From the NCBI GenBank assembly GCA_031213475.1, contig JARUPZ010000026.1, forward strand, positions 8,987,824-9,051,823: DNA of 64,000 nucleotides, in the 5' to 3' direction. The notes beneath the pieces are model-generated. The model was not told the origin of the DNA, did not search any database, and saw only the letters and a list, made by a program, of their open reading frames with translations. A program made the position numbers and the translations under genes. Source of the DNA: Nereocystis luetkeana. Lineage: Eukaryota > Sar > Phaeophyceae > Laminariales > Laminariaceae. Positions 933-62,400 of the stretch are shown piece after piece (position 1 is the first letter of the stretch; every line of letters starts with the position of its first letter).

Positions 933-1213
933 CTGATTTGAGAAGAGGGGAACAAAAAAGGCAATATAGAAACGAGAGAGCAAAAAACAGGAAAATAATA
1001 AATCGAGAGGAAAATAGCGAAAATACAGCGAAACAAGAGACTGGGAAAAAAAAACGGAAAACGGAAAACAAGTACCAGGTATATAAGAGCTATAAACTAT
1101 ACAAGAAAATAGATTTTTAAAAAAACGGGAAAAAAAAAAAAAAAACAACAAGAGAAAAAAAGCGGACGTACAATAAAACGGGAGACGGGGGGGGGGGGGA
1201 AAGGACAAGATAA

Positions 1214-1311
1214 CCCTTTTAGGACTGCAGTCTCGTTTCGGGGACAATTGGGGACAAATTACTTGGAATTTGAATGCCTTGTCCCCACAACGGGACTGGA
1301 GTTCAAAAGGA
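1214..1311. mobile_element. R1 MITE copy
   Basis: CCCTTTTAGGACTGCAGTC at the left, GGACTGGAGTTCAAAAGG at the right; flank ATAA. Confidence 0.7.
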
Positions 1312-3033: not shown

Positions 3034-3387
3034 CACCCTCGCGTCATTGTACGTCGGCAGCCCGTGATCCCCGACCCCTCTGCACGGCGTCCACGGGCAT
3101 CTTGAAAAGCGGGGACAGGTTCGAGATGGCCCCGGCGTAGTACGCGTCGATATCGAGGGCCGGCGACAACACCGCGCCCCGCAAGATGTCGCCCACGTCG
3201 TTTCGCGCGAACAGACCGGCCAGGTCCGCGCACGCCGTGGTCAGCTCGACGTTGTCCTCGGCCACCGACAGATAGCCCTCCGAGACGATCCTCACCGTGG
3301 GGGGAAGGGCGGACTCGAAGGCGGCACCTCCCGCCGTGATCGTGAACACGTCCGCGCCGGCGTCTACGCTGTCGTCGTAGTTTTCCA
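3034..3387 (-). CDS. Peroxidase-like gene, exon 6, with one-base frameshift
   Basis: Acceptor GGAAG|TG at 3388/3387. It encodes ENYDDSVDAGADVFTITAG, then LRGAVLSPALDIDAYYAG, LSPLFKMP and DAVQRGR. After a run of four G (minus strand; C at 3069-3072 on plus) the family signature continues one frame over as DHGLPTYNDAR. Removing one G would restore RGRDHGLP exactly, so either the base is an error or the gene is broken here. The proximal-His motif (FRFGH) is not present at the expected place. Donor GTG|GTGAGC at 3034 (or 3037). Confidence 0.7.
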
Positions 3388-6300
3388 CTTCCGCCAGCCG
3401 CCGCCGACTCCTGCCAACCCGCGCCCCCCCCCCTCCTCCACCACCTCGGCGACCTCTCCCCCCCCCCCCCCCCAAACCGCCTCCCCTCCCCCCCCGCGCG
3501 GGACGGCGAAGCCCCCAACTCCACCTCGAACTCCGCCCGCCCCTCCGATCCCGAAAAAACCCACTCTCCCCCTCCCGGGCACCCTCACCCCCGCCTTCTG
3601 CAGCCTCCTCCTCCTCCTCCTCCTCCTCCGCCTCTTTTCCCTGAAATAGCCCCCCCCCTTGCCCCCCTCCAACAGCAACGCCGAGGGACCGAGAACTCCA
3701 AGGGGAAAGCCGCCTACTCCTCTGCCGTCTCCTTCGTTTGCTGTGGCCGTGGCTTGCGGTGCCTCCAGTGTCTGCGTCGCCGGCTGTGCTGGTGGTGGCG
3801 GTGTCTGTGCTTAGCCCCAGGGTAGCGATGCTGCCGCCCAAGAGGAGGATGATAAAATCGTTCTCGGTGACGTGCTGGAAAATGGCGATCGTCCAGCCGC
3901 GGCAGGCCTGGTAGATGTCCTGAAGGGGGGGCGGGCGGAGGAGCGGGGGGGAGGGATGAAAACGTAACCAAATCGAAACAAAACGCACGCTTGAGATTTT
4001 TTTTTTGAAAGAAAAAATCCTCGATCGAACGTCTGATAAACGTCTGATGTCATGTTTAAAATACTGATTTACAACAAACAACAACAGTACTGCTGTACGG
4101 GCAACATACGCAATGGGCACGCGTGCATCCCCCCCGCCGCTCTTTCTAGCCTCAAACCCGGACCTCGCACAAGCGGGCACACAAGCAGGGCACCCCTCTT
4201 TGCAGAGCCACCTTGCAAATAAACTCGTGCAACGCTTTTTGGCACGTGGCATTATTGTGCATAGACCCAGCCCCAACCCCAGTCCTAAACCCAAAACCCA
4301 ACCCTTCAGGGAGCACGACGTCGGCAAGGGGCGGGTGCGCGGCAGGGCAAAATAAATTCGTGCAATACCCTATGGTACATTACCATATTGCGTATCGGTT
4401 CAGACCCAACCCAGCCCCAACCTTAACCCTAGACCCAACCCCAGCACTAGACCCAACGCTAACTCCAGCCCCAACCCCCACCCCAACCCCAATTTCATCC
4501 CAACCCCGACCCCCAGCCCTATCCCCACCTCATCCCAACTCCACCCCCACCCCCACCCCAACCCCAACCCTAATCCCAGCCCCACCCCCAGCCCGAACCC
4601 GATCCCCTACCCCCACCCCGAACCCCCACCCCCACCCTCATCCCAACTCGGACCGAAACCCCAGCCCCAACCCTAGGCCCAACCGGGGGCTCAAGGTCGA
4701 CAGGGGCGGTTGCGCGACTCCGCCGCGTGTTTCGGTGGCGTTTTTCCGAAAACAAACGGACGGCAGAAAGGCCAGCCTCGGCCTGATCAACACTGGTATT
4801 GCACGGGAACTACTCGCAAGGCGGTGTTGCAATGGGGGGATATCGTATCATACCTACAAGCAGACTGAATAACGAGCACCGTGCGCCACTAACCTCGTCT
4901 GTCTCGAAGCCGCTGTCGGGCGCCACGTCGACGCAGCAGCGGTTGTGCTCGAGCAGGAGCATGATGTGGAGGGCGAAGGTTACCGGTAACTCGGCCGTAC
5001 GCTGGTCGGCGATCTGGAGTTGGCGTAAGTGCCGGTAACGGTGGCGGTAACAGGGTGGCGGTATCGGTAATAGTAACGGTAATAGCAACGGTAATGGTAA
5101 CGGTAACGGTGATGGGAATGGTAGCGGAATAGGTAACAGTGACGGTAATGGAAACGGTAATGGTGACGGTAATGGGGGTGGTATCGGTAACGGTAATGGT
5201 TACGGTAGTGGTGACTGTATCGGCACCGGTAACGGTAAAACGGTAACGGTAGCGGTGGCGGTAAATGGTATCGGTAATGGTACCGGTGGCCGTAACCGTG
5301 ACAATAGCGGTGGAGGTGACCGGAATGGTAGCAGTGACGGTAATGGTAACGGTAATGGTGACGGTAATGGGAATGGTAACGGGAACGGTAATGGTAACGG
5401 TGGCGGTAGCGGCGTCGGTAACGGTTAAACGGTAATGCTATCGACAGCGGTAACGGTAGTGGGAGCGGTAACGGTAACCGTGGCGGTGACGGTAACGACA
5501 ATCGTAACTGTATCGATGGCGGTATCCGTAGCGATAACCGGAACGGCGACGGTAACGCTGACACGGTAACGGTAGTGACAGCGGTAACGGAAGCAACAGC
5601 AACAACACCTCCTTCTACACGCCCTCAGTAACCCAACTATTTAACAAGTCGGACAGATCACGATGGATGGATGCATTTATCTCTACTACCAGTAGATCAG
5701 ATAGATCCTCAGCTGCCGTTGGGAAAGGTTGTGCAGGACCTATCTATGTAGTACAGATCCAACCCGCGAAACATGTGCTAGATCATGCAGAATATACGGC
5801 TCCCACCCGGCAACGTGAACTAGATCATATAGATCATACAGATCATACAGATCATACATATCGTACAGATCATACAGATCATACAGATCAGGAATATATA
5901 TTTCTGCCCTGAAAGCTTTAGATCATCAACTGTGGGCGTTGGGATCTGTCTGAAGAGTGAAACGTCTCTCGATGTTTCCACCCAAAACAAGACACGCGAC
6001 ACACCCGCCCACCAGCCAAACCACCGCCCGCGTCCTAATAAGGCGCCCTCTAATCCGCAGCCGTTTTTTTCGAAGATACTCAACGCCTCCGCCTCCTACT
6101 CGCGGGAAAAGAAAGCCCATGATCAATTTTAAAAATAACAAAAAGCCCAGCCACCACTACACGCGTATGTGTATGACTCCTTCTCGTACGTGCATGCCCT
6201 CCTTTGTCTGAATTTTCCGGGAATGTTCCTGAGTTTTTCACCCCCACTGCTGTCTCTGGAAGTGCCTACACCGGAAAAAAAATCATCAACTCATACAACG

Positions 6301-9206: not shown

Positions 9207-11046
9207 GTAGGGTAACGCTCCTCAATTCAAAGGCCTTTGGAAAAACTGCAAGCATGCAGGGGTTTTTTCGGGAGGCGGATGGCGGGGGCGGGGGGGGGGG
9301 GGCAAAAACTACTCAGTATTATAGTAATAATAGTGTCGATTCTAATGTAGCGGAAGCACGTTCTTTCGGGAACAGATAAGACGAGAGCCCTAATTGCAAA
9401 GGGGTGTCGCGAGTAAGTCTTGCACACCACCGCCCTGTTCCGGCTTGGCACCCTGAACCACCCCGACCTCATCCCAGCCGGACCTGAGCCCTCCGAGACT
9501 GAACCTGTGTCCCACTCTATCCCTAGAATGAAGGACCTAAAATGAAGGACCTTGGCGATTAACTATTGATGTACACACGGCTCTTGTATTTCGATAGAGA
9601 GTGGTATATTATTAGCCGGCCGCAGGCTCTACCTGGTCACCCCGATCCCACCATAACCGAATCCACCAAAATACAGGGTTTCCACGATTCCACAAAAAAC
9701 CACACACACACAGCAAAAAACGAAGTGCACAAAAAAAAAAGCATGCACTTGTTGTGTGGTGTGCAGAGTTTAATTTGCACATTTCAAGTCCCGACGCGGT
9801 TTGAAATATCAGTACAGCAGCGTAGAACAGCGGTATAAGTTTTTTTTTTTTTTTTTAACTTGGTGGCAGTGTCGTAAGTCTAGAAGAGCAGGAGTGTGGT
9901 ATCGGGAAACATGTGGTTTTCGGGTGCGCATATGCTGACAAACCCTCGCCGGCGCCAGCAGCAGTAGTAGCAGCGACGGGGCCACCCGAGATACCCGGCA
10001 CCTGGTACAAGATATCGGTGCTTATTTTGTAAAAAGTGTGACACAAACTCCAGGCGATTTTTTCGGAGAAATGAAGCAGAAACTAAAGAGGCGGGCGATG
10101 GCGTATTACGCTTGTCATTCTCCCGGGCGGCTCTCTCCACCGCAGCTGCCCCTCTCGGGGGTGAGGTCAGGTCAAGTCGGGTGGGTCAACATGCTCACCC
10201 GCCAGTGGCAACAACAGCCGGCTCTGATGTTGCAGCGGGAGTGACGGGTTGAGTTTACGCAAGACACGTATGTATTACAAACGTGGGAGTGCGGTGAGGT
10301 TGAGCTTTCCTTTTACCAATCCGCCGGAGGATACAAAACTGAAAAAAAAAAAAAACTTTTCAAGCCTCCACAGATACGAACCCCCACAGATGTTGCTCAA
10401 TAACAACATTAATGTAAGTAATGGCTCGGGTGCCACTCGAGGGCCGCGACGGTTTATCCACTCGAGGGCCGCGACGGTCTATCTCTTGGATGGGTAGCGT
10501 GGACACACGTCGGGGCTCTGGGATAACGAGTCGACAACGAGTCCAAGGAGAGCGAGTTAAGTGACAGATGCGCAACGCATGTAATGCAATGCATCAGACG
10601 GTCTCGGGTCACTATTGACAATCATAGTTCGTCCGTCGACGAAGGACTGACCGAGATACTACTGATGATATAGTATATCAAGGGAGATCTGATGTCACAG
10701 TCGAACGATAAGAGACTACACTTGTGACAAGATTTGTTGGTGATGCCTGTATGGGAGATCCTTCCGATGATCTCCGGAGACATGCAAGCAGAACGAGACC
10801 TGATCTACTCCTACATCGCCCCCGAATGCTTGAACATCTCATACCGGAAAACCCAGCACGCTTTGGAATATGTTTGGACAGAGACAAGCTGGAGTTTCTC
10901 TACCAAATAACCATATATATGCTACTATTAATATTATACTGCTGTACTGAAAAAAACGATCCCATTCTAATTTCAAGTATTTTTATCGTGACAAGCCGAT
11001 TCACCTGGTATTTTCTCTATTATAGCCCAAGCCCTGTGGTCTTGAC

Positions 11047-11131
11047 ACTTTAGGACCGCAGTCCCGTTTCGGGGACAAACTGCTTGGAGTTTGAGTGATT
11101 TGTCCCGAATACGGGACTGCAGTGCTAAAAT
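11047..11131. mobile_element. R1 MITE copy
   Basis: ACTTTAGGACCGCAGTCCCG and CGGGACTGCAGTGCTAAAAT inverted; terminal bases eroded. Confidence 0.7.
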
Positions 11132-11943
11132 AGTATACTGGTACACCACCAATGCTGCACACGTATAGATAGGCCAAGCTTCGACAAACCTGTTGCACTT
11201 CATAGCATAGCGTTAGTGGCGGGGCTCGGCTGATTTCAATAATAAAACTGCAGCACTACTGCAATCGCAGCCCACCCGCTAGTAGTGCTGCAGTCCCAGT
11301 GTTTTGGGGTGTGAGGGTGAATGCGTTGTCGGACAAAAAAAAAGAGGTTTGACTATCTACCTGGTACCTGGTATGTAACAGGCTTCACGACGAGCAGGAG
11401 GAGGGAAAATGGGGTTTTCGTTGCTGTGGGGTAATACCTCGTACGTAGAAAGAAGAGAGACTTCTATCGTCCGTACCTGGTGCTACTACGCTGTGGTAAA
11501 ATAACAGGATACTCGATTCAAGTCGGATTGGAACATTCCTAGCACCACATAAAGTATAAAGCCGTTCGGGCTGGCCGATGTGGCTGTACTGCTTCTCTTT
11601 TTTTTTCTTTTATTACGCGGGACCATACCTGGTAGTAAATACCTTGTACCTGGTAGTAAATAGTGTTCGTGACTATAGGTTAACATATACAGTAGGTTTT
11701 GGGTATACCGTAGATCCTGTTTACTACCTACCTGGTATTATTAATAATATGTTCCCCCATACTACCTGTCTAGCGTAGCCTAGCGTAGCCGTATACTAGG
11801 TAGCTATTTCGCGTTCTTCGTGTTTGAGCGGTGGCTATGTTTTAGTACAGTACAAGTGGTATTATTAATCGTGTAATAGCTGGTACGAGAAACGAACGCA
11901 TGTGCTGTGTTGGTCTCTCTCTTCAGCTTGCGTTACCCCCTAT

Positions 11944-12155
11944 TTACGCGGGACCATAGTAAAAAAATAGAACCGAATATTGTTAATACGGGGGACCTTA
12001 GTTAATAGGACTAAATATTGTTAGTAAAAATGGTCATACAGGTTTTTATGTATACCATAGGTTCTATTAACTATGGTCCCCCGTAATAGTAAAAATAGCG
12101 ATTTACATAGGTTTTTGTGTTTACCGTAGGTCCTATTTAACATGGTCCCCCGGAA
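11944..12155. mobile_element. TA-flanked MITE (family R2) with a second copy nested inside
   Basis: The outer copy runs TTACGCGGGACC ... GGTCCCCCGGAA. It is split at a TA by an inner copy (11986-12086), flanked by TA on both sides (11984-11985 and 12087-12088). Removing the inner copy and one TA rebuilds the consensus ATTGTTAGTAAAAAT. This proves the TA target duplication. Confidence 0.8.
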
Positions 12156-12163
12156 TATTAATA

Positions 12164-12267
12164 TTACGGGGGACCATAGTTACCAGGACCAAATGTTGTT
12201 AGTAAAAATTGTTAAATATATAGGTTTGATGTATACCATAGGTCCTATTAACTACGGTCCCCCGTAA
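12164..12267. mobile_element. R2 MITE copy, 104 bp
   Basis: TTACGGGGGACCATAGT left and ACTACGGTCCCCCGTAA right; TA on both sides. Eight bases (TATTAATA) separate it from the nested pair. Confidence 0.8.
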
Positions 12268-12362
12268 TAGTAAACAAGCCAACCACAATCACGAAGGGAC
12301 ACCTGGTACACTTATACCAGGTATATACCAGGTGCGATACAATGTCGGAGAGCGAAAATAAT

Positions 12363-13237
12363 CAGGGCTTTTCGCGGGTCAGGTCAAACTCACGGGTCGG
12401 GTCGGGTCGGGTCGGGTCGGGTCAGCTGACCCGACCCGACCCGCGAAAATGTTTAGGTATGTTGACTTGACCCGACCCGACCCGCGAGATTTTGAAAGCC
12501 TCTTCACCCGACCCTACCCGACCCGTGAGATTTGAATATCTCTTGACCCGACCCGACCCGACCCGCGAGATTTCGAAACCTCCTGACCCGACCCGACCCG
12601 ACCCGCCACTTTCCAACTGACCCGTGAGACACGGGTTTCATGCGGGTCGGGTCACCTTGACCCGCGAGACCATTTATCTTGACCCGAAGGTTCCACCCGC
12701 GGATCTGGCCCGTAGGTGGGTACTTCAAAAACAATTTAATGTTCATTATAGTGCCCCGAAGCGATGTATGACCTGGCTGTAGTGGGTTTGAATGGATGCG
12801 GGCATGCATGCGTATATGAATTTGGCGGTGTTTTAATGTCTGAATATGATACCAAAGGGGTGTCATGGAGTATTGGTACGATAGAAGCCTTTGGGTAAGA
12901 GAGCGGGAAGTTATTCAAGTGTCGGGCCCGCGAGCCGAATACGCGGGTCCGACCCGCGGGTCAGCAAAAAACAACTCGCGGGTCATGCTGGCCCGACCCG
13001 TGAGTGACCTGCTTCTCGCGTGTCATGACCTGACCCGACCCGTAAGCTTTTCATCACCTCTTGACCCGACCCGACCCGTGAGATTTGAAAAACTCTTGAC
13101 CCGACCTGACCCGACCCGCGAGCTTTGAAAAAATCTTGACCCGACCCGACCCGACCCGTGAGATTTTGAACACTTCCTGACCCGACCCGACCCGACCCGT
13201 GACATTTTGAACATCAAGTGACCCGCGAAAAGCCCTG
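12363..13237. mobile_element. Non-autonomous hAT-like element, 875 bp, with 8-bp target duplication
   Basis: The termini are CAGGGCTTTTCGCGGGTCA and its inverse. It is flanked by the perfect 8-bp direct repeat AAAATAAT (12355-12362 and 13238-13245). CAGGG ends with 8-bp duplications are hallmarks of the hAT superfamily. Inside, each half is an array of (GACCC)n blocks separated by GCGAGATTTTGAAA-like spacers (unit about 40 bp); the two arrays face each other around a unique centre of about 200 bp (12721-12925). No transposase reading frame. Confidence 0.8.
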
Positions 13238-13980: not shown

Positions 13981-14787
13981 GGGTCTTATTTTTCATGGTC
14001 TACGAGAGCTGTCTGTACTATTAATACGAGTACTGCTGTTGTGCCTGTTTTTTTCATTTCTTTCGATGCTTCTCTCTTTCATAGAATGTGTATGTCGTGC
14101 ATCCCGTATCCAGTACGATGACATGTCATTGCATTGTCTACTCTGCTTACTGCACAACAATGTAGTAGTATCTCTGTGTCGTATAATATTGTGACTACAG
14201 AGCTTGTTGTATCTCTATGGTGGAAGAATCGGCGCGGACACTGGCTTTGCCCGATGTCGACATGAAGCACACAATTTACCCCAAGAACCTGATCGATCTA
14301 CAGCAGTACAGCAAACAGCAAGCAGTACTCGCACAGCCTGTCATGTTGCGCATATCATTAGCTGGCTATCAAGACCTGAATGTATACTCGGCACTCTGCT
14401 GCCCAAGGCAGATCCCGACTTATTTCCCAGCGAGAAGCTTACCAGTCCTATCTAACACCCGTCACCCTTATGTCGCGCTATTACACATACCAGGTACCAG
14501 GTACACATCATCACACACAAGATGCCAGACCAAAATAACTACATGAAAAGTAGGCTCAGATAGGTACGTACGAAAAATAAGAAATTGGGTGAAGAAGCAC
14601 AGCTCAACCGTGGGACCAACTCTAAATCCTACCATTACAATAGAGTTACATAGATAAATCAAGGTCCGAAAAAAAAGTAAGACATTGAGCCCCTGGACAC
14701 CAAATTGACGTTTCCTAACACCAAGCGGGCCACTGGTACACAGCAGCAGCAGCAGTACGTGCGTCAAATGGTGGGTATCATACAACG

Positions 14788-15165: not shown

Positions 15166-15308
15166 ACCCTGCTCCCACCCGGACCTGATCCCACCCGGAT
15201 TTGATCCCATTCGGCACCCTGCTCCCATCCACAGCGTCCATACATATACCAGGTATATAAAAGCGCGAAGCGCGAACCATCATCTCACCGGTCGGTCGTC
15301 GTGCACTA

Positions 15309-15413
15309 TTACGGCGGACCATAGTTAATAGGACCTACGGTACACACAAAACCCTATATATTTCGCTATTTTTGCTAACAATATTTGGTCCTATTAACTA
15401 TGGTCCCCCGTAA
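15309..15413. mobile_element. R2 MITE copy, 105 bp
   Basis: TTACGGCGGACCATAGT and ACTATGGTCCCCCGTAA, TA at both flanks. Confidence 0.8.
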
Positions 15414-42700: not shown

Positions 42701-42840
42701 TAGAACGAGCGGGGGAATACTCGCCGCGAACAAGGCCGCAAATTTACAGGCACACACCCTTGGCCAGGCATGCTTCTTTCGCAGGATGTACGCTACGAAG
42801 CTTTCAAGCTTGCTTTCTCCTGTGTTCCTCGCTCTTGATA

Positions 42841-42945
42841 TTACGGGGGGCCATAGTTAACAGGACCAATTTTTGTTGGTAAAAATGGTTAAACATATAG
42901 GTTTTTATGTCTACCATAGGTCCTGTTAACTATGGCCCCCCGTAA
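42841..42945. mobile_element. R2 MITE copy, 105 bp
   Basis: TTACGGGGGGCCATAGTT and AACTATGGCCCCCCGTAA, compensating G/C changes in both arms; TA flanks. Confidence 0.8.
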
Positions 42946-45241: not shown

Positions 45242-45576
45242 TATAAATATGTCGTCTTGTAGACTTTACGGCAGTACCTGGTATATAGTGTGCGTCAACC
45301 ATAAGACGCGTCAAACGAAATTTTCGAGTAAAGTGGTGTGTGGTGTGTGGTGTGAATGGGCAACGGCAAGCACTCCATCTACTGGAGAGGATAGTTATTA
45401 ATAGCATTGTCATTGTTGTGGTCGATCTGGGGATTCCAGCCACTAAAGGATAGTACGAGTATTATTAATAATAGTAATGATAACGAGGTTATACTCGTAA
45501 AGTTTACGTAAAGAAAGCCAGCATGAAACTTGCACGGAAACAGCAGTCCACGCGCCCGCACTGCTGCTGTTTTTAA

Positions 45577-45665
45577 CCCTTTTAGAACCGCAGTCCCGTT
45601 TTGGAGGCAAACCACTCAAAATTCGAGCGGTTTGCCCCCCAAACGGGACTGCGGTCCCAAAAGGG
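45577..45665. mobile_element. R1 MITE copy, 89 bp
   Basis: TTAA at 45573-45576, CCCTTTTAGAACCGCAGTCC left, CGGGACTGCGGTCCCAAAAG right; right flank TGAA. Confidence 0.75.
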
Positions 45666-47479: not shown

Positions 47480-50400
47480 GTAAGGGTGCTTGGTTCGGGT
47501 AAAATTGTCACGGTTGCCCATTTTCTTTCGTCTTGAATTTTTTGAAAATTCTCTGTGTTATTGTGGCAGCAGCTCAAAGCAGTACGATACTTGCCTCGTC
47601 TGCAGCAACTCGTACTGCTGTGTACATGCACCTCTGCTGCTGCCGTTGCTTTCGAACACTGGGTCGTAGATGCATAGCTACTTGTAGCAGCAGCTGCGAC
47701 ATATGCTGGGAACTGTTTGGAGTGTAATGTCCTATTAATATTCTGTGGTTCTCGAAGTTTGAGCAATACGAAAAAAACGCCAGTCTGGCTGTAAATGTAA
47801 GGATCGATTGGTCTTCATATTAATATGTAATTGTTTATTATAATTCCGCCTATAGGTTCTACGTGGCAGTATGATACCCGCAGCAGTGTGTACCTATTAC
47901 GACAGAACCCCCAAAATACTGCCAGGACTCGCAGTCTGCCAGTATTCCGAGCACCTCCAGCGCTTCGTGTTTTCCCCTCCAAAGGTGAGTCAACTCCAGA
48001 TTGCACCACCTGTGATCTGTACGTATTAATAGTAGAGTTGCGCACTGGCACGGTGTTCACTGCCAGTAGGTTGCTATAAACTGGCAACAGCCAGAAGGTT
48101 ACTACTGGCAGCTGATTGAGCCTGCCAGTATATGCTAACAGTGGATTTAAGATTACGTTATACGTCGAAGAAACACACCATATTACATGGTGGAAAAACT
48201 GTAAATATGAGGCTCGCCCTACAACGCAGGACGCGCAGGCAACGAACTCGGTGACGGATATCTGTGGTCAATCTCAATATTTGCTATTCTAGGGCTGACT
48301 CACTCAGGAGATTATACCGTCATCAAAACCAATCAGCATACTGGATTGCAGCAGTATACTGGCCGAGCGAAGCGACTAGCTACTGCCAGTAGATTGCTAC
48401 TGCCAGTACATACTGCTGTACCAGTGCCCAGCCCTAAATATTGCACGCCGGCACAGACCATCCCAACCCCAGCCATAACCGTGGCCCTACAACGTTAACC
48501 GTTTGGGGGGCTCGAAGCAGGCAGGGGTGGTCAAGCGGCTCCGCAGCATGTTTCGGTGGCGTTCTCCCCAAGCCTCCCGGGCGGCCATAATGGCAGCCTC
48601 GACCAATCAGACAGACCTCCGTCACGAAATTCGTTGCCTACCAGTCCTGCATATAGGGCAGATTTCAAAATGAGTTCCAGGAGGAGAGAGGGGGAAATAA
48701 GATCGACTCATCATCGCTACATCTTCAACATGATACGAACCTGGTACCGTTTTGTCTTCCTATTTAGCTACAATATTTTCTGTGTCAATTCCCCCAACCC
48801 CCAGCCACAGCCGGCAAACAGGTGCAGTATCGATTCCAGTACAGTGTACTGATGCGGTCCAGTATACTGACTGCTGACGGAGCCAGTACAATCTCTGTTG
48901 CGAGAGGCTGCTACTCGTGGTGACTAGCCCTACGCAGCCGATGTGAATATTTTTCGCGGAAAATATTGTAGGATGGAATTATCAAAACGTTGTAAATATG
49001 TTCCCAGTATACTTCATTCTCCGAGAGTACTGGGAGCAGTCGTAATATTGCGCACTATCGAACCCTGAAAGGTTGCCAGTATTCGCAGTACCTCCGGTAT
49101 TTCCCCGCCCGACAGTAGTAGGATGCAGCTCAACCTTCATGCGACTCGCCGAACACCTCACGGCGCTTCGCGCTCGGTGCAAGCAATGTCTGCCCGGTCG
49201 GTAAAAATCCGACGTGCTCCGTCCCGGCATCGTTGTAGGGATGCGAGGGTCTGTGGTCATACGACTACGACCACGCATGCTATCGAGTACACTCCCCCTC
49301 GTCGACAGTAGCACTTTCTTTTGACTCCCACCACGGAGGGCATCTGTGCAGAACGTGTAAATACGGGCAGTCTAAGCCTATGAATGGGTCTAGACTACGT
49401 ACGTATGTTCAAAGCTTTCAGCTTTCATTTCTCCCGGCACATGTACCGCCCTCTTTTACTGGTTGTTGCGCTAATATTTGCTCTAGAGTCAAGGAGTCGG
49501 TGGTCACATGGTAAAGGTGTTGGCGTCCCATATATTAACACGAAATTCCGAAGAACCATAAAAAAAAATCCGGTATACTCGTAGCAGTATGCTGTACATA
49601 TCGGATACGTTCTGAGATTCGTTGCCCACGGCGGCAGAACCCTGGTGGGAGGCTTTATTGCATCAGGTAGATGCCGCACAAGAACAATGCCGAGAAAAAG
49701 AAAATATCTCTCCAACGCGCCCATCCCGCGGGTGCGACAGGCGGAGTTGGTTTTCCAAAGGTTGCTGGAGGCGGTGGAGGCGCATTCTTCGGAACTGGCA
49801 ACGGTCAAGAGGGAGGTATCCACCAAGGCCGGCGGCGACGAATTGCGCGGGTGAGCTCCTACGACGGCTATTAACGGCACTTCCTCTTGTGGCAGTACCC
49901 TCCCCCCGTCTCTATGGTGATACGACTACAGCCAAGCATGACATTAGTACACCCCACCCTGTCTCTCCCAAGCTCCCCCCAACCCCAGCCCCCCCCCCCA
50001 ATTACCCTCTTTCCGTCCCTCCTCTTCCTCCCTTTCTCCCCACGGATGCCCCCCACCCGAGCTGAAAGGTCAAAGTGATGAAAAAAGTAAGCACGAAACA
50101 AAGTAAATACAACGTACTGTAGGTGTAAATGCCTATACGTGGAGAAAATCAGCCACCCCCCCCCCTTTCCACACGACGAGGGCTTGAGGCTGGTCCACAT
50201 TTTTTCCTATCCAAACCCTTTCCGCCCTGACCCCGCCCCCCCGCTGCCCAACCCCCACCTTAACTCTTCTATAAACCCAGAATGTGTAGAGAAATAAACG
50301 GTCGTCTCGCCGCACTGGAGCATCGAGTGGCAGCGGCGGAATCAGCCGTAACAATCCCAGAAAGTTATGACGGTGGGAGAGGCGCTAGAAGTGTTCCCGG

Positions 50401-53400
50401 CGGTGTTCCCGGCGGAGACCGAGGGGGGGGGCTCGGGGCCACGATGAGGGGTTTCACGGTCGGGGAAGCAGTGCAGGCGAATGGGCAGGTGCGCTAAGGG
50501 GTGGGGGGGGGGGGGGGGGGGGCTATCGGTATTGTATCGTAGGCTATCGGTGAGGTGCGCACAAAGGTGGGGGCGGAGGTTGACGGGGAGGGTCGGGGAG
50601 GCGTACTCGTTTGTTGCTTGCCTTCATATTTTGACCATTGCCCGCGTATACTTTTCTAGACGGAGCACCGTTTCTACTCGTGATAGAGACACCTCCGACA
50701 GTTGGGTGCTCGTTACGCTGTTTTCACAAATTACTCAGAAAGTTTTTGCTTGTCTCGTCCCCATCTTGTCTAGCCGCCTGTGGCCACCATCTATCTCCTG
50801 CGATAGCGATCGTTTCCTCGCTACTACCTACCCTGGTAGTGGCCTACTGTCCTCTATGCCACATGCGATAATTTCCTCCTCTCCTCTGATACATCCCGTT
50901 TCTCCTTGTGCATGTCGCATTCTCCCACTGTGTGAGTTTTAGTCTCTACGATTGCTTTGCCACAAGGGCACGTGGGGGAGGGGGGGGGGTGTCTACTCGT
51001 ACCTTATCGATAGGTGTATAATACTTGCTTTAGCCGAAAGGTTTGGTAAAGGTTTGGCAAGCGTGCGGACTGGCCGGCATTTATTAGAGTAGAGGCTTGG
51101 CACAGTCGTGTATGCGACTTGGTCCAGCTTTGACAAAATGGCTGATATTGCACTTCCCGCGGTGTGATATGCATCCTCTCTGTCCTGGTGCTTCCTCGCA
51201 TCTTAGTTTTAGGCCATCGCCTCCGCCAGCCCCCCAATCACCCCCCGCCCCGCCCCTTCTAACCCCCCAACCACCCCAACCACCCCTAGCCACCGCCGCC
51301 CCCCCGCCAGCGATTCCCCCCCAATCACCACTACACCCACCACCACCCCTCCCGCCAGCCCACCCTCCCCATCCCTCAACCCCCCTTTCAACCATAATCC
51401 CCCCTTCCCTCCCGAACCACGCCCCCATCCTCCCTCAACCTCCCCCCTTTCCCCACCCCAATCACGCCCCCACATTCTAACGCCGCATACTCTGGGGTTT
51501 CCTGTGGGGTTGTCGGCAGGCGTTACGGGTTGCGATGGCGAGGCTGGAGGAGAAGGCCGGCAAAGTCGAGCTGACGGCAAAGGTAGGAGCTAGAGCATGC
51601 CATATCAGATCCACGAAATTTATCACCTCGGTATCCCAGGGCAGATAGACCCCTGATCTCTCCGAGATTATGTGGATGGTGTACTTTGGATCATGTTGGA
51701 GCCTGGTGGGAGCGGTAGGATCTGCGCAATCTAGCCCGCTTTTCCTTTCTTTGGATTCGGATCTGTTCCGTACAGAATCCTGCGCAACACATCACAACGA
51801 CAGAAATGTCAATGTTCGCATTTCGATCATCTAGATCGTGATCTAGACCCGGTGTGCGAGAGGTACGGCGGTGGGACTGGACGCGCCAGAGGCGTGTCTT
51901 GTTCGTCTTATTCGTACGTTACGGCGGGCGCTCGATGGGAAAAAATCAAAATTCGCGCCGACCGACTGGGACATCGGCCAACGAACCGATCTATACACTG
52001 GCACAACAACCGATTGATATACTATTTTCCAGCGCATCGGAATCCGAACCGAAGACAACTACTGATCGGTGTATCTCTCGACCTATTCGAACCGACCTAC
52101 CGACCGGACTCCCGGCATACGCATCGACCTTACCGACCGACCTGTTCAGTGTGTAGAGTGATTTGTTGAGCGATATATACCGACCAAGCAGCCAACCGAT
52201 TGGTCGTCTTACTGACCGACCTATCGTCATATCGACCGATATTCCGACCGACCCACCAATCGAATTATCGGCATACCGATCAACGTATCAGCGTATCGAT
52301 CGATACACGTCCAACGTATCTGCGTATCGATCGATGTATCGCGCGATGGAGCGATGATAGCAGCCAACCGAAACGTCGGCATACTGGTCAACATGTCAAC
52401 TTATCGGCAGATCGATTGATCTATCGACCGACGTAACGACCGACCAGCCGATCGCATTTTCTGCATATGGATCGACCGATTGACCGGCCCACTTATCGGT
52501 GTACAGACCGATTTTTACAAGAACGCCGAAAGAATTTGTTGCTGCTGTAACCGCAACCCCAACGACAACAACAGCAACAACGAAAGTTTTTTTTTCCCAT
52601 TTTTTTTTCATTTTTTTATTTTTTGTCTGAGAAAGAAGAAACTCATATACCAGATACATCATGTCCTCCCTGCCTATATCATAATAACAATATAACGTAC
52701 CTTTTTTTCTTGGTTGGCTTATTTGTTGTGTGGTCGTACCCGGTACGTTGGCAATTTCCTTCGAAATACCTTGCTCCAGCTGCGATCGATTTTGGTTTTC
52801 TGTGTCTCACAATCTGCGCCCCCACAATTTGTATCCCTCTAGGATAAATAATAAGGAAAGGACAGTGGATGCAGTAATTGATATCGCTCGGTAGAAATAA
52901 CGTTTTAACGTAGGACGGCAACAACAATAATTCAATTTCTGATACCGCATGATGCAGGGGAAGGAGCTCGAAGATAGTCTCCGCGAGCGTGAACGTGCTC
53001 TTCGACAGTGGGGGGTGGGGCGTGACTTTGCGGACAGCCTCGGGAGGGCGCACAGAGGCCTCGCGTCTCAGCTGGTGGCGGTGAAGGGCGTTTTAACCAC
53101 CAAGCTCGACAAAGTGAGGGGGGGGGGGGGGGGGGGCTCACTTGGAATTAGAGTTGAATGTGTGTGTCTGCGCACTGCAGCACTAAAAGGTATACGGTCG
53201 GTCGCTCTATAGACTTATACCTGGATGCCGAAACGGCCAACCCTTTCAGGATTGCAGTCAGTCCCGTTTTGGGGACAAGCTGCTTAAATATTGAGTAGTT
53301 CGTCTCCAAAACGTGACTACCTCTTAGGACCGCAGTCCCGTTTTGAGGACACACTGCTTATAATTTTTGAGTGGTTTGTCCCGAAAAAGTGACTGACTGC

Positions 53401-56400
53401 AGTCTTAACAGGCCTAAAAGGGTTAAGAAGCCATTACCATGTTGACGTGTTTTCACGGTATGGGCGCCGAATATGATAAGAGGGACCAAAGAAGAGAATA
53501 TGATAAGAAGGACCAAAGAAGAGAATATGGTGAGAAGGACCAAACAAGAGAATATTATGAGAAGGACCGAAGAAGAGAATGCACGGAACGTGGCGTCCGG
53601 CGTCACGCGCGCGCGGGTTTTTTACTGCGCGGTTACCGGAATGCCCGTTCTCCTTGAGTAGGTTTTTTTACCAGGAGGCACCTTTTGGTTGTAGGTGTTT
53701 GACCAGAATGCCCAATTTTGGCGTTAGGTTGTGACCAGAAGGCCCATTTTCGTTACATACTTTTGACCATGAGGCTAATTTTCGATACACATGTTTTTTG
53801 CAATAAGTCAAATTCAAGTTTTGACCCCTTTTGGGACTATTTTGAAAAAAAAAACGTTCGAACCGTCCGCAGTCGGAGTTGGACAACATGCAGGCAGCGT
53901 GCGCCAAGGTGTCGACGGTTTCGGAATTTCTGGACGAAGCGTCGGAACGGGTCTCCACTCTGGAGGTTGGGCTGGAGAAGGAGGAACGCGAAAGGCGGGA
54001 ACGAGAGCGGGAGACGGGGGAGGCACTGCGGTGTTTGAGAGCCGATCTCGCGAAGAGGGCCGATGCGTGAGTCGTCGTTGTGTTTCGCTCTTGATCCCCA
54101 TCGCGTCCCTTCCGTCCCTCGGGCCTGGTTCAACCGACCTTGATGATACTTGGTACCTCTCTGGCCGTAAATATAAGGAACGTTTGATGTTTAATTCAGA
54201 TTCCGAACAGAGCTTATAATTCCGACCATATAGTGGTATACATTTCTTTGTTTGGTGGTGGTTGTACATAATTAATAGTTTGAGTATCGGTAGTAGTTGT
54301 TGTTGTTGTTAGTCGAGGAGAGGAGGAAAAGAGACTAATGTCATACGGAGCAGAATAGTGCCCTGGATATTGGTGAGAAAACAGTCGATTTCCTGCATCG
54401 GAGGTAGATGGTGGCCACACACGGCGAAACAGGAAGGGGATAAGATAAGCAAACACTTTTTTAATGTGATACATGGAACACGGTGCGTACTAAACGCCCA
54501 ATTGTTGTAGGTGTTTTTATTAGGGCTTCGAGCGGTGCTCCGCCACGAAAGGGATGCGTAATCAATGGTCAAATCACGAAGGTAAGCAGAAAATGAGTAC
54601 CCCCCCTCCCCACCCCCATGTCATCAATGAATTCGACCCTGTCATCCATATTGGAAAAAAAAAACGCCTCGCAGGCGGTTCTTACTATTAGTATTAGTAG
54701 GATGCAGATCACCCTTCATGCAACTCGTCCAACACGTCACGGCGCTTCGCGCTTGATGCAAGCAATGTCTGTCTGGTCGGTGAAAACCCGACGTGCTCCG
54801 TCCCGGCATTGTCGCGATGCGACGGTCTACGGTCATACTTCGCACGACTACGGCCATGCACGACATGAGTACACCCTCCCCCACGGAAAAATGTACAAGC
54901 AGGGACGGGATGTGTGTTAGAAGAGGAGATGGGGGAAATAGACGGGTGTGACATGGAGGAGTTTCATACACTAGATAGCAGCGAGAAAACGATCGCCATC
55001 CTATTACGGGGGACCATAGTTAGTACCAGGTAAGACCTATGGTACGCATAAAAACCTACCTGGTATATATTTAACCATTTTTACTAACAATATTTGGTCC
55101 TATTAACTATGGTCCCCCGTGATAGGAGATAGATGGTGGCCACAGGCGGCCAAACAGGAAGGGGATAAGACTAGCAAAAAAAATCTATGTAATATATGGA
55201 AACAACGTAATGAGCGCCGAAATGTTGGAGGTGCCTCTATTGAAAGTATGAACAGTGCTCCGCCTCGAAAGGGATGCGTGGTCAATGGTCTAACGACTAA
55301 GGCATGCAACAAATGCGCAAACTCCCACCCGCCCCCGGCCCCCCGCTTTGCTCGCAGGCACGATTCCCGGTTGGTGGCTCAAGACCTGGCAGACCTTCGC
55401 CAAGCCTTTGTTGGAGAGACGAAGTCGGGGATTAAGCAACTACGGGCGCTGAGGCAGGGAGCAGACGAGATGAAGGTGAAGAAGGGCGAAAGCTGGGGGG
55501 GGGGGGCTTACATACTGGTATACCAGGTATAAAATAAGGCGTACCTTTTTATTAATACCCCTGGCAAAGTCACGTTTTCTGAGGTCTTTGTTCTGGGTGT
55601 TTTATGTGTGTTTTGGGCTTGTTTTTGTTTGCTAGTTTGTTCGTTTTTTCCTCTTCCCATTCATTACCTTCGTCCTTCTTTTCTCTCTCCCTTCTATTAA
55701 TAGTCGTAACTCAGACCCGGCACAGTAGACTCTCCTCCCCCCACCCCACTATGGTTGGGTGCCTGGTATCTGTGGATTTTGTATCAAGAAACGGAGGCGT
55801 TTTGTCAGAAGTTGTGCATTGGAACTGAGGGCAAAATGTCAGGAATGCTCAGCATTCACACACATATTTGGAAAGGTAAAACAAGCGAATCTGGAAGAAA
55901 AAAGTTGAGCGAAAACAATATCTGGAAAACCTGTTTTTTTCGGACAACGAGGTCTTCAATAAGAACGCCCCTAACCCCCCTCAATAACCTAATTGCTGGC
56001 CTGCACTTGTTGTGACTAGGGATGTGGCAAACGGCCCAAGTTGGGGCTGCCAAAATAGTTGTTGTGGTTTATTATTCTCTCATCTCGCAATAGAGCCCAT
56101 GGTATGGTGCGGGGGAGCCGCCCTAAACATTTCATACCTCCGTTAGATAGATCATCTACAGATCATCGATTTCTACTTCATGATCTAGATCATTCAGGGA
56201 AGATAGATAATATTTTCTTGCTCTGTGTGATCTGTATGATCTAGTTCACGTTGCCGGGTGGGGGCCGTATAGTCTGCATGCTCTGGCACAGGTTTTATGT
56301 TCTATGCAGATCCCGCACAACCTCTCACAATGGCATTCGAGAAAATATATGATCTACAGTAGACAGATAGATCAAATAGATAGGTCATGATCTGTCTGTC

Positions 56401-59400
56401 CGAGTTGTGGATAATTTCAAAGCTCGTGGCAGTGTAGTACAGCAGTACCAAGTACTTTGGGCATGACGTACTGTGAGGTACTGGGGCGCACCCATTACTT
56501 CGGGCATAGCGTACTCTAAGGTATTATTAATTGGGCGTGCCGAATGATTTGAGCATAGCGTACGTACCGGTATCATACTGGCGACGTATACTGGACATAC
56601 TGGCAGTATATTTTGGTGCAGCAGTACACTGGTATCAACGCATTTGTACTGTTACCCAGGCCGCCACAGTAGTACAGCAGTACCAGTCCTATTTCAGGCA
56701 TGGAGTTTTATGAGCAAATATCAGAAGACAGCACTTTCACCCCCAGACGAAAAGCGTCTAGCAAATGCCTAGACAGAGAGGTCAAGACACAGCAGAAACC
56801 GGGGACACGATCGAACATCCCTGTTTTTGAAACGCCCGACAATATTGAAGGTCATGCTGCACATTGTCGGATGGCAAGGTCATGCTGCACACAGATATTA
56901 GTTTTTTCCTACCAAGGGGGTAGGGGCAAATGTCTGGACAAACGGATTTACCTATTAATGGTTCATACAGCTAGATATAGACATGTCTCCCGACATACTT
57001 ACTGTGAGGTACTGGACCATCCCTGGTACCCAGCAATTCAAGCAAGCATACTCTGAGATACTGCTGGTGGTGTACTGCGGGAGTGGTCTATACTGGTCCT
57101 GACGAATAGGCCTCATACTCGCAGTATGTAATATCGTGGCGCTCTTTGCAACTTTTGGTACCGGGTACGTACAGCAGTGCTCATTGTGGGCACAACACTC
57201 ACGGCAGTACCGACCTTAGTACCGACAGCAGTACAAACCTTGCACCGACAGCAGCACAAACATTAGTACCGACAGCAGCACAAGCCTCTGTTACCGACAG
57301 CTACACAAACATTGATACCGACAGCAGTGCGAACCATAGTACCGACAGCAGTGCAAACCTTATTAGTGCCGAAAACAAACAGTACAAACCTTAGTACCAA
57401 CATCAGTACAAACATTGGTACCGATAGCAGTACAAAAAACCTTAGTACCGACAACAATCCACCTCGTTAATGCCCTGGAAGGCGACAATACGTTGCGGTA
57501 CCTGGTAGTCGTCGGTACGTACTTTACAGCCAGTTTTGGCATTTGTGTGCTTGGTACGTATACCTGGCCCACAAGAGCGGTATGCTGTACTCGTATGTAC
57601 CGGTAGTATCAAACGCCGAAAATGCGAGACACAGGCGCGCGCAAGCAAGAGTATCAACAGGAGGACCAACCGCCGAGATCAAGATCTGTACTCGTACGAT
57701 GTATACCTGGTCTGGTACTGTATACCAAAATACATGTATGTACCGGTACGTGTTTACACGTGTTTATCCAATATTAATATTGTCTACAGCAGCAGCAGTA
57801 GGTCAGTACCCGAGGATTCAACGCCCAAAATACTACACCGTATCAGGCAGCGTGAGCCGTGCCAGTATCAGTATCAGCAGTATGCCCCGGTTTACACGCG
57901 AGACCTGTGTGGCGAAATGTCCGATTGTGTCTGCCAGACTCGAAAAATGCCACATAACGATATACCGCCGAACCTGCTGTATGTATATGGGGAACAGCAC
58001 GCCGTCGCATATCGTTGGCGCTGCATTTCAATGAATGTCATGTGTGAAAAAAACGATGAACTCGTGCTCGTACTCCTGTATAATACTCGTATCAGTATTA
58101 TTTTCTTGTGTGTGTTGCAAGTATCAAATGATGAAATACTGAGCTCCCAGTAGGTGCAGACCAGTGCACTTACTGCAAGTCGTAGTACCTCCAGCATCCA
58201 GTACCAAAATACGTAGTGACGCCGGCAGCAGTATACTGCTGCTGTGAGCATACGTTTGGCATGTTGCCTGCTATTCTATGTACCTATGATACCTGCTACC
58301 TCTGGTATTTACCAGTATGATAACAATTTATTGAAAATACTAGGCTGCCAGTAGGTGCAGACCAGTTCACCAAAACAGTAGTACCTCCAGCGCATACGTA
58401 GTACCTCTAGCATCCAGTACGAGCACGAAGTGCAGAGTGATCTTTCAACTGCAGTATACTGCTGTGAGCGAGCGCTCGCGAATGCTGCTGTGATCACCCG
58501 TCCTGATGTCAACAGATCTTGAAAATTAATAAGATGCGTCTATATAAAACGTGAAATACACAAATAATATTATCAGCCTCTATAGCTCAGCTGGGAGAGC
58601 GTGGCACTGAAGTTGCCAAGGTCACTGGTTCGATCCCGGTTGGAGGCATCTATTTTTTTCTTCTTTTTTTTTCGCACAAAACGGCCTTCCCTGTTTTGAA
58701 AAAAATAGCCAGTCAGCCGTCAGCACGATATCATATCAGAGGTGGAGTGGTGTGTATGCATTTCTCGTGTGTTCTTGTCTTTTATGAATATCCGTACGTA
58801 GTTCGACGAAAATATGATCCCATACTAATTTCAAGTAGTTTTTTTTTCGCTACAAGCCGATCTACTTGGTCTCATCTCAGCTTTGGATAGGTACGCCACT
58901 ATCTACGCTGCACATACTGCTATTAATAGTTTTCCAATTGAACAGCGGCTACGATTTCGGAGAGCTCATCTGAAGAGAAACACCCTTTTGAAGGCGCAGT
59001 CCCCTTTAGGGGACAAACCATCCAAATTTCAAGTAATTTGCCCCCAAAACGGGTCTGCGGCCATAAAAGGTCCGAATCGCTAGGCACGCATTAATGGACG
59101 AAATACTCTTCTGCTGGAAAGAATCTGGAATGACGTGGGGTCCTTTTCGCAGTACGCGTATTGAAGGCTATTGGTAGAGATACGGCTGGGCACTGGCTGA
59201 CTCAGTCAGTAGCGATTATGCTGTTGTCGAAATCAACCAATATTTAGATTTTCAGGGGTATTTTTCATCTACGTTCTCCTCCCGAAGCGCATTTAGTGGG
59301 TTGTCGTACTATAATATGGCGTGGTCCTTGAGCGTACGTAAAATAAAAAACGACAGGCGAATATATTATACTGGCCAGGTCAATCAGTATATTTCTACAT

Positions 59401-62400
59401 GCAACAGATTACTACTGCCGGTACATACTGTGCCAGTGCCCAGCCCGAATCAGAAAGGTTTACCCCATGGTATGGTGCTCACCCCTCTGTCAAACCGTAG
59501 TCTACACCAAAAATCGATAGCCTCTGTTTTCGTTGTTGGCGAATTTACTGACCAGATCAATCAGTATATTTATACTGCCAGTAGATTGCTACTGTCAGTA
59601 CATACTATGGTGCCAGTGGACAACCCCAGTTAACCCTTTTAGAACCGCAGTCCCGTGTTGGGGACAAACCACTCAAATTTCAAGTAGTTTGTCCCCAAAA
59701 CGGGACTGCGGTTCTAAAGGGGTTGAAGAGGTTTACCCCATGGTATGCCTCTTTTATACCGTAGTCTACAATAAACGTCGGTAGCCTCTAGTATTACTGC
59801 TGTAGTCTATAATCGCGAGGCGGGGCAAGCTCAACTGTCGAATGTTCTGAGGAAAAGCAAAGTGTATAGCAGGAAAAGCGCACCAAACTGGACGAGAGGG
59901 TACCTTCTTTTGCAGCACAACAATCAGGTAGTCAGTGCACTACGGCACAGCGGGCACCGCGCAACATTCCGGCAGTCGGATGGTGCCATAAAGCACAGCA
60001 GTACAACAGCTAACGGTATTAGTGTAGTACACAGCAGCAGTGTGCTAGGTACAAATACCGAAATAGTCTTTCTTCCGTGGAGACGTTTTTTTGTTCTGCC
60101 TGTTGTGTGACCGCGGGCTAGATGTGAGGGTAATGAGCTACAATGGGTACCCCGCCTTAAGAGAGGTGTGGCCCGACTTAAGAGAGGTGTGGCCCGACTT
60201 AAGAGAGGTGTGGCCCGACTTAAGAGAGGTGTGGTACAGGCCGAAAACACCTGCCTTCTCTCTTACCCACCATAGGGAACATCTATTACGGGGGACCATA
60301 GTAAATAGGACCAAATGTTGTTAGAAAAAAAATAGATGAGTATACTGTGTTTGTCTGTACCGTAGGTCCTATTTACTATGGTCCTCCTCAATAGTCTTAG
60401 TGTAGGCGGCTCCAGTCGGTCTGACTTCTATTAACTGTATACCAGGTATTATCTTATGTCGTGCCCTCTTTTGGGTCGCGGTACCCCCATACTGTAATAC
60501 TGTGATGCGAGAACATCATCATCATCATCATCATCATCATCTGAGCATGACGTACTCTTGAGGTACTGGTCTACGCTGACGTGCCGATACTGGCGACGCA
60601 TACTGGATACACTGGCAGTATACTTGATGCCAGTAATATTGTTCTGCTAGACTACACATCTATTGCGGTGGTATTGTACACATCTATTGCGGTGGTATAG
60701 TCCTACTACTGCGTCGTCACCAAGCACAGAAAGAGTAGGGGTATTTTGGACATGATGTACTGTGAGGTTTTCTGGGCCTTACCCAGAAATCTGGGCATGG
60801 AGTGCTCTGAAGCACTGATGTGCTGAGGGGGGTATCGCACTGATACTTGCGACGTACACTGGGTATACTGGCAGACAGACGTTAACTGGATTACAAACTG
60901 GCGGGCGTATACTGGGTACACCGGCAGCTGCATGCTGAGTATACTGACGGGTGCATACAGGGTACGCTGGCTGACGAATAATGCGGATGCTGGCAAGCTA
61001 TATACTGGGGATACTGGTAATCGTATACCAGGTACTTGGTATTGGGGATACTGGCAAAGGTATACGGGTATACTGAAGAACGTATACTGGCAGTGGCGAC
61101 CTTTTGGGTGTGGTAATTTTATCCATCTCTGGGACCCAGATGTACGCCTTTCCTACCTCCCGTCAACACCCACCGCGGCCGCGTTCGTCAGAAAAATCTC
61201 GTAAAATTATCCCGGTCACCTTTCCTCCGTCCCACCAACACCCACCGCCGTAGTGTGTGTGTCAGAAAAATCTCGGGGAAATTATCCCGGTCACGTTTCC
61301 TCCCTCCCATCGACACCCACCACCCTCCACATGCATACGAAAAAGTCGGAAATTTATCCCGGTCAGCTTTCCTCCCTCTCACCAAGAACCACCGCCGCCG
61401 TCGCCGCCGCCTTCTGTCAGAAAAATCTCGGCGAATTCTCTGGGTCTACCGACGACCGTCTTCAAGAGGTGGAGGCCTGCTTGCTAGGGGCGGCGACGAA
61501 AGAAGAGGTGGCGCTCAAGGCTGACGCAAACCGCATGGAGGTGGGATAGGCGTTTTTTTTCTTCTTGTTTGCTCGTTGGACGCACGCCTGTTGATTTTTG
61601 CGCGAATAATGTTGATTTTTGCGCGAATAATTTGGGCGGGTAGATGGGGAAGGGGGTATTAGCTCCTCGGGTATGTTCGGGATGATCTTGAAGTCGAAGT
61701 CTCATCGAAATATGAAGCCTTTTTTTGGCGCACCGGATATCCGGTACACACGGGTGGGGTGTGCTAGTGTCGTGCATGGCAGCAGTGGTATGACCATAAA
61801 CTCTCGCTTTTTCCTATATATATTGGCGGGACTGGGCGCGCCGGGTTTTCACCGACCAGGCATACTGAAGAGATTTGCTTGCATCAAGCGCGAAGCGAAG
61901 CGTGAGGTGTTTGGCCGAGTCGCACGAAGGGTGAGCTGCATCCTACTTTGCTAAGAAATGCTTATGAGGCGGACTTTCTTGCACATGAATAACAGCGTCG
62001 AACGAACTGATTTTGTTTTCTGGTGTAGTCGCTTCAAGAGGCAACAACGGCTACACTATGTAACTGCCTCGTGGGTGCAGTTTCCATAAAGGTTCGTGTG
62101 GGCCGGGTGTTTTCGCGATGTTTTTCGAATCGGTGTATTATCGGAAATATTTCGAGAACATTTCGAGCACGGAATAATCAGGGTCGGGTGGGGTCGGGTC
62201 GAATCTGGCGGGTCGAGTCGGTCGGGTGACCCGACCCGACCCGACCCTTGAAAAATCGAAAGCCCCTTGACCTGATCCGCCTGACCCGACCCGCGGATTG
62301 GGCCGTGACCCGTGAAGGTCCCTGGGAATAGCGGCTTCACATGTGAGGAAGGGGGGGGGTCCATCCGTATGGAGTATGTGGCCCCGGGGTATGCTTGGAA

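Follow-up and report, generated by a model that had tools for sequence, protein, structure and literature searches.

The 9-mer TACCWGGTA (W being A or T) occurs 39 times in a 64,000-nucleotide stretch of the genome of the brown alga Nereocystis luetkeana (contig JARUPZ010000026.1, positions 8,987,824 to 9,051,823; hereafter the window), and at several places it is an insertion at a pre-existing TA dinucleotide. We propose, with a probability of about 0.62, that TACCWGGTA is the excision footprint of a TA-inserting miniature element of the Tc1/mariner (Stowaway) type, the candidate source being a foldback family of ~83 bp with TA-CCA ends. Excision is favoured because a second scar in the same genome, TATTAATA, matches the ends and the target preference of a resident element; the existence of the TA-CCA family adds a weak link.

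Abundance of TACCWGGTA in the window and in the genome

The 39 copies (21 TACCAGGTA and 18 TACCTGGTA) are grouped in 32 clusters. In 100 dinucleotide-preserving shuffles of the window the mean was 0.53 and the maximum 2, which excludes a chance origin. The original prediction, made from the letters of the window, had announced dozens of copies where chance predicts about 0.5 and had given ten example coordinates, all of which are correct. The comparison with TA-N5-TA palindromes, proposed together with that with shuffled sequence, also revealed an enrichment: among the 16 cores of the form TA-xyWyx-TA, CC was found 39 times, GG seven times and each of the remaining 14 cores once or not at all, and the central-G/C form TACCSGGTA was present twice. 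The seven GG-core palindromes are all located within copies of the 109-bp repeat family described below; TAGGWCCTA, being part of that element, was rejected as a scar class of its own. Besides the copies taken up in the following sections, TACCAGGTA is found at 1073–1081, 12315–12323, 15247–15255, 23862–23870, 26419–26427, 44011–44019, 44125–44133, 46007–46015, 55521–55529, 60440–60448 and 61026–61034, and TACCTGGTA at 1683–1691, 17405–17413, 29310–29318, 40549–40557, 45275–45283, 45810–45818 and 57499–57507.

Twenty 10-kb stretches, taken at arbitrary positions on 20 contigs of the same genome (one includes 2,500 N), contained 93 TACCWGGTA (0–18 per stretch), compared with one reversed control ATGGWCCAT and five TACCSGGTA; a further 40 kb contained 13 copies and no reversed control. 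Below, 264 kb designates the window plus these twenty stretches, 314 kb the window plus 250 kb of genome pieces, and 354 kb the latter with the later 40 kb; L-numbers are sampled loci of the same genome, L035–L048 being 14 loci chosen for the motif and L049–L052 a later set. Outside the window, 121 copies were counted in 290 kb (147 - 39 + 13), or ~420 per Mb, and for an assembly of 465 Mb this extrapolates, from 290 kb, to ~190,000–220,000 single motifs (roughly 200,000). The doubled form TACCWGGTACCWGGTA was counted in the whole assembly, where it occurs 15,917 times, with 2 occurrences of its reversed control. Viral contigs carry the doubled motif at nine loci, with two or three motifs each, and a search of these contigs with the end of the 109-bp element gave no match.

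Insertion of the motif at pre-existing TA dinucleotides

Copies and part-copies of the 109-bp family (29 regions in 314 kb, some of them merged) were aligned to their consensus. Eighteen regions have no insert of at least 3 bases, four carry TACCWGGTA or a one-base variant, and seven carry other short inserts, some of which occupy the same TA (e.g. L028:6015). The four carriers are the window copy at 55002, which has two insertions, L024:5863, L027:4936 (as TACCTGGTG) and L014:8544, in a more complex form. Compared with the AAATATA-TAGG, or a near form of it, of most aligned copies, the window copy (55002–55124) has AAATATA-TACCAGG-TAGG, a clean 7-bp insertion at TA (TACCTGGTA, 55057–55065), and it also reads CTTA-CCTGGTA-CTAACT where most read CCTA-TTAACT (TACCAGGTA, 55024–55032, with two substitutions adjoining). 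Similarly, a degenerate copy at 11611 has ACCA-TACCTGGTA-GTAAATA (motif at 11626–11634) in place of the ACCA-TA-GT(A/T)AATA of other copies. TACCTGGTA is present again in this copy at 11647–11655 and, adjoining TTATTAATAATA, in degenerate 109-bp sequence at 11729–11737, and TACAGTA is found at 11688–11694, where most aligned copies have a plain TA. In another repeat family, L047 reads TGTGTA-CCTGGTA-TTTG and L037 reads TGTGTATTTG.

A self-comparison of repeats in 314 kb yielded 198 insert sites of at least 4 bases, including 17 seven-base rows. Among the latter are CCWGG inserts at L010:5269, L024:5927 (two rows) and window positions 55027 and 55060, and near variants at L027:5001, L027:7094 and L023:7661. 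When the 14 motif-chosen loci were added to the indel set, TA was the most frequent duplicated dinucleotide (29 of 247 sites, followed by AC with 21), and among the eight TA-duplicating inserts with a 5-base core in this set, motif-chosen loci included, four had CCWGG and three were one base off. In conclusion, TACCWGGTA is an insertion at a pre-existing TA at several places, and at the compared sites TA is ancestral and the scar derived because paralogous repeat copies have a plain TA there. The part of the original prediction that placed the insertion at TA is thus established; its attribution to the excision of a transposon with CCW/WGG ends is probably correct and is the best-supported explanation.

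A palindromic, over-represented motif with an extended symmetric consensus could also be a protein-binding or structural site maintained by selection. We regard this as highly improbable, as the motif occurs inside non-coding repeats, where it adds 7 bp and duplicates TA, and as its variants suggest decay of the kind seen in unselected DNA: one-mismatch forms exceed expectation by ~70 for 132 exact motifs (264 kb), which corresponds, as a rough estimate, to ~6% per site, mostly transitions. This suggests that the scars built up over a long time, in which case an element of low copy number with steady activity could suffice. More generally, a short palindrome that is over-represented in a genome of this kind can represent a scar and not a regulatory site.

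Target preference and chains

Flanks of 112 motif clusters were pooled from both sides after reverse complementing (224 sides), and 20 positions per side were compared with those of other TA sites. They deviate only at positions -8 to -1, with a chi-square per position of 13–78, compared with at most 6.2 at -9 to -20. A is enriched at -1 (111 of 224 vs 65 expected) and T is depleted there (14 vs 42); T at -2, A at -3, A at -6 (112 of 224 vs 57 expected) and A/T at -7 are also enriched, and the signal stays once CCWGG-like flanks are taken out. The clusters therefore have a symmetric consensus centred on TA, as in the target preference of Tc1/mariner elements, and the pattern looks like the choice of TA targets that a TA-specific integration enzyme would give. 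The preferred target is ATATATAT for Tc1-like elements (PMC7913693) and AAGTACTT for Passer (PMC9976928).

The original prediction that the motif often sits in chains was correct: seven doubled forms are present in the window, at 11358–11373, 14488–14503, 29069–29084, 39525–39540, 39944–39959, 43173–43188 (mixed, A then T) and 46057–46072, the first and the sixth having been named. The outer TA of each scar has a further TA at -7/-6, supplied by the scar itself, and is therefore a better target, which helps to explain the chains. They might instead result from 7-bp tandem duplication by slippage and not from repeated insertion at a common TA, a mechanism that is compatible with excision and to which we give a little less than an even chance. 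Same-letter pairs dominate, as duplication would have it, in six of the seven window chains and in 14 of 22 adjacent pairs in 314 kb, and seven tandem TACCWGG units (A A A A A T T) lie at L014:5603–5653. However, the other eight of the 22 pairs are mixed, the motif itself provides the TA at -7/-6 that the target preference favours, and chains also join different scar classes, the doubled motif at 46057 continuing through a common TA into TATTAATA at 46071 (TACCAGGTATTAATA at 46064). The chains fit the target preference in part and, since same-letter chains prevail, duplication of 7 bp is probably a further cause. A-then-T pairs seemed to be in excess at short gaps, an observation that was discarded, as it came mostly from the single seven-unit run.

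A second scar and a matching resident element

The 109-bp miniature element has the structure TA-TTACGGGGG...CCCCCGTAA-TA, with ends TTA...TAA. It has a TA at both ends, with flanks TAC/TA, and hence the 2-bp TA target duplication; terminal inverted repeats on a short element are found in this family as in the ~83-bp candidate source family. Copies in the window are located at 11984–12271 (+; copies 11984–12090 and 12162–12271, and a partial one between them), 15307–15415 (-), 35591–35699 (-), 39237–39329 (-; diverged), 42839–42947 (+), 45158–45243 (+; partial), 55002–55124 (-; the copy with two TACCWGGTA insertions) and 60284–60393 (+).

TATTAATA is present 24 times in the window (e.g. at 1453, 10926, 25958, 29321 and 58921) and 75 times in 314 kb, where 6.8 were expected and the reversed control occurs 6 times. 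At 25958–25965 it is a 6-bp insertion at TA, compared with a repeat copy ending at 55003 (-) that reads CTGCTATC-TAGTG. Thus, for TATTAATA as for TACCWGGTA, paralogous repeats reveal a single TA replaced by TA, end bases of an element and TA; the end bases correspond to TTA for TATTAATA, and for TACCWGGTA to those of the CCA family, a weak link. TATTAATA tends to be preceded by TAC and followed by GTA (T at -3, A at -2 and C at -1 in 74, 78 and 67 of 150 sides), and the insertion flanks of the 109-bp element carry the same letters (27, 23 and 24 of 41). TAC occupies -3 to -1 before 11 of 43 ends of this element, compared with a fraction of 0.022 of all TA. Because flanks and end bases agree, TATTAATA is read as the excision footprint of the 109-bp element, for which these comparisons are good evidence; the join itself would consist of a TTA end and a TAA end overlapping by TA, giving TA-TTAA-TA.

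A candidate source of TACCWGGTA

It had been suggested that elements starting with TACCW should be searched for. No abundant one was found: 108 half-sites TACCWGG that are not followed by TA (264 kb) have no common extended end, a few pairs excepted (TACCAGGGTATGTTT at L010 and L026; TACCAGGCAAGTAC at window positions 37118 and 44144), and a long source element with TACCWGG ends was rejected on this ground. Inverted half-site pairs were in no clear excess over direct pairs, chains and a few elements aside. Inward-facing TACCAGG...CCTGGTA pairs (5,377 genome-wide vs 301 for the reversed pattern) were not used as evidence; of 14 that were fetched, seven belong to one larger repeat family and two to another, and others are chains. 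The search did reveal a single 567-bp element (L034:7154–7720) that begins with TA-CCAG and has TA and ends CCAGTCYGGTCG, and a scan with its end led to the foldback family with ends like TA-CCACTCTGTCCG.

In 314 kb, 19 candidate elements of this family could be paired, the weakest being doubtful, and nine of them are 83 or 84 bp long; TA is present at preserved ends and lost or decayed at others. Those in the window are located at 564–650 (ends TACCACTCT.../...AGAATGATA), 9510–9606 (decayed left end), 16034–16127, 25514–25596 (diverged), 36407–36490 (TACCACTCTGTCCG...CGGACATAGTGGTA, 84 bp, the top-scoring pair), 39652–39734 (diverged), 47778–47860 (diverged) and 54154–54236. Among 21 TA-starting ends (354 kb, scored on bases 7 onward), CCA comes next in 16, and the fourth base after TA is C in 11, T in 5, A in 3 and G in 2. 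Their flanks lean towards those of the scars at -1 (A/G in 18 of 21, p 0.015), -7 (A/T in 15 of 21, p 0.053) and -6 (A in 9 of 21, p 0.059), leanings that the 109-bp element does not have. In addition, two of the 30 ends of 15 foldback elements have their terminal TA in common with an exact TACCTGGTA, at 16126–16134 (element 16034–16127) and 25595–25603 (diverged element 25514–25596). These observations point weakly to the ~83-bp TA-CCA family as the candidate source of TACCWGGTA.

Excision model and product variants

A non-autonomous element of the Tc1/mariner (Stowaway) type would insert at TA and duplicate it; cut out again, it would leave short 3' overhangs of its end bases, and end joining would seal the break, converting TA to TA-CCWGG-TA. 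Source ends TA-CCA...TGG-TA would leave TACCA and TGGTA at the donor site. Either the last A would be lost on one side or, with 3-nt overhangs, the terminal A would face an A and the mismatch be resolved, to give TACC-A-GGTA or TACC-T-GGTA. Three parts of this scheme are inferred: that an excision took place, how long the overhangs were, and that TACCWGGTA derives from the ~83-bp family.

The W=A and W=T forms number 72 and 75 in 314 kb; they are reverse complements of each other, so that their equality is expected under any strand-neutral model. In the same sample TACCGGTA, the form in which both A would be lost, is mildly enriched (19 vs 5.1 expected), and neither the one-end forms TACCATA (23 vs 19.3) and TATGGTA (27 vs 20.4) nor the six-base form TACCATGGTA (1 vs 0.5) is clearly so. 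Two other short strings are over-represented in 314 kb. TACGAGTA/TACTCGTA (44+34 vs ~12 expected; nine in the further 40 kb, where the reversed control occurs twice) is possibly a third TA scar class, for which no insertion case was seen so far. TACAGCAGTA/TACTGCTGTA (15+14 vs ~1.6 expected) is without explanation, and a similar string is present in a repeat of L035–L048.

The footprint of Sleeping Beauty is TACWGTA, its CAG overhang annealing to itself with a central A-A mismatch. In the alga the core is CCWGG and not CWG, and TACWGTA itself forms a separate, weakly enriched class (85 vs 36.9 expected in 264 kb). The transposases of Sleeping Beauty and mariner nick at a position three bases into the element, which leaves 3' overhangs of 3 nt, and in Sleeping Beauty these bases make up the footprint (PMC7827188); the TA target and the palindromic TA-centred preference of Sleeping Beauty/Tc1 elements (PMC7827188, PMC7913693) are likewise found here. 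Stowaway miniature inverted-repeat transposable elements left TA-flanked scars with 1–4 bp of their ends in the beta-amylase and DMC1 genes of Triticeae (PMC1925063), and these resemble the algal scars in the end bases flanked by TA and in the repeated use of one site. Excision of mariner/Stowaway elements usually leaves a small duplication and short element sequence, mainly through end joining in yeast assays (PMC4561436). For rice DNA transposons, eight of 94 putative excisions were perfect, leaving the target duplication only, and the rest had deletions, filler or both (PMC4423477).

Weighing of the model and of its alternatives

Several results weigh against excision from the ~83-bp family. 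Seventeen of the 21 TA-starting ends had served to build the model, and of the four new ones two begin with CCA (the others with CAA and CCT). A at -3 and T/C at -2 gave no signal in the 21 flanks (p 0.47 and 0.27), and, unlike in scar flanks, G leads at -1 (18 G and 10 A of 38 ends) and is not depleted at -2 (16 of 38). Exact TACCWGG lies outside just one of 21 ends (p 0.17), and outside two if one mismatch is accepted (p 0.042). At a loose cut-off 158 ends were scored, compared with 53 in a one-direction reversed control. The family is diverged and far rarer than the scars, with 19 candidate elements vs 147 exact scars in 314 kb. When the joined flanks of 15 elements were compared with the window, the 250 kb of genome pieces and L035–L048, no pair of element and scar at one site was found; only two matches spanned the junction, one of them a self-repeat at L012 and the other, at L019:7802–7899, weak (72% over 99 columns) and with no TACCWGGTA at that point. 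A search of the genome with profile PF13358 gave 30 scored candidates and no match, and no transposase was found. On the product side, TACCAGTA is enriched (21 vs 6.5; reversed control 10 vs 4.0), for which we have no explanation. The uniform product of the alga contrasts with the mixed outcomes in rice (PMC4423477) and with the varied Stowaway scars of Triticeae (PMC1925063). Finally, a lone A-A contact makes a poor join, whereas overhangs of 4–5 nt from CCAG or CCAGG ends would anneal better and give the same product.

This last point leads to a variant in which the scar goes back to another TA transposon that has since become rare or disappeared; its ends would begin with CCAG or CCAGG, and its 4–5-nt 3' overhangs would self-anneal with a central A-A mismatch to give CCWGG. 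Stable GC pairing would account for a uniform product, one such element, of 567 bp, is present at L034, and the flanks of the CCA family match those of the scars only partly. Nevertheless, we consider this origin rather unlikely, as the 108 TACCWGG half-sites, a few pairs excepted, do not extend into a common end, and as their inverted pairs do not clearly outnumber direct ones.

According to the second possibility raised in the original prediction, an element reduced to five bases, a TA-specific transposase-like activity would write CCWGG and a copy of TA directly, with no excised parent. Scars do far exceed recognisable parents in our sample, and trimmed or blunt product variants are rare. 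However, the same genome contains TATTAATA, which fits an excised resident element, as well as a CCA-ended family. We know of no mechanism for a micro-insertion of five bases, and this proposal gained no positive support; we retain it as an improbable alternative. If true, it would mean a five-base mobile unit with its own target preference, repeated ~200,000 times and stacking on its own products. Excision of a Tc1/mariner (Stowaway)-type miniature element is preferred to both.

Relation to other genomes

Footprints of this kind are known, and their number and uniformity in the alga are not described in the literature searched. In grasses, Stowaway scars are few and varied, at single loci (PMC1925063), whereas the alga has one near-uniform scar in ~200,000 copies by extrapolation. 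As here, excision scars of rice were read at the scale of the genome (PMC4423477), but outcomes there were mixed and one product dominates here. Ectocarpus, also a brown alga, contains 17 families of Mariner-Tc1 elements, most of their almost 12,000 copies being non-autonomous miniature elements, and the words footprint and excision do not appear in the main text of that report (PMC12477816). The motif's letters turn up in 217 papers, of which the 20 listed have unrelated titles, and the literature searched yielded none that could be recognised as treating such scars in brown algae.

The genome seems to carry scars of one shape in numbers of the order of 10^5, together with a second class that a resident element matches. 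In that case the genome as a whole could reveal past cut-and-paste activity, the choice of targets and the rules by which breaks are repaired, and it would show that a single product dominates break repair in a brown alga. The scars may amount to a fossil record of earlier transposition, and those at orthologous positions could act as dated markers between species.

Other features of the window and of the sampled loci

Another foldback family, with arms like TTAACCCTTTTAGAACCGCAGTCCCGTTTTGGGGAC, is present in the window at 413–529, 11049–11129, 45573–45669, 53242–53412 and 59613–59743, and arrays of GACCCGACCCG with a 40-bp period extend over 12393–13211 and 28286–28450. An inverted repeat at L027:5640–6695 spans 1,056 bp, and its arms match over at least 40 bases with at most two mismatches.

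A tRNA-Phe (GAA) gene is located at 58576–58648 of the window. In the frame at 3044–4369 (-), a short stretch matches PF03098, the animal haem peroxidase family, with 28.5 bits. A RING-finger reading frame at 31232–31915 (-) shares 83% identity with a Laminaria digitata protein over 53% of the query, and two other proteins score higher. The EsV-1-7 cysteine-rich motif is typical of brown algae, and 12 stretches matching it were found in a long open frame at L022:5456–7915 (-).

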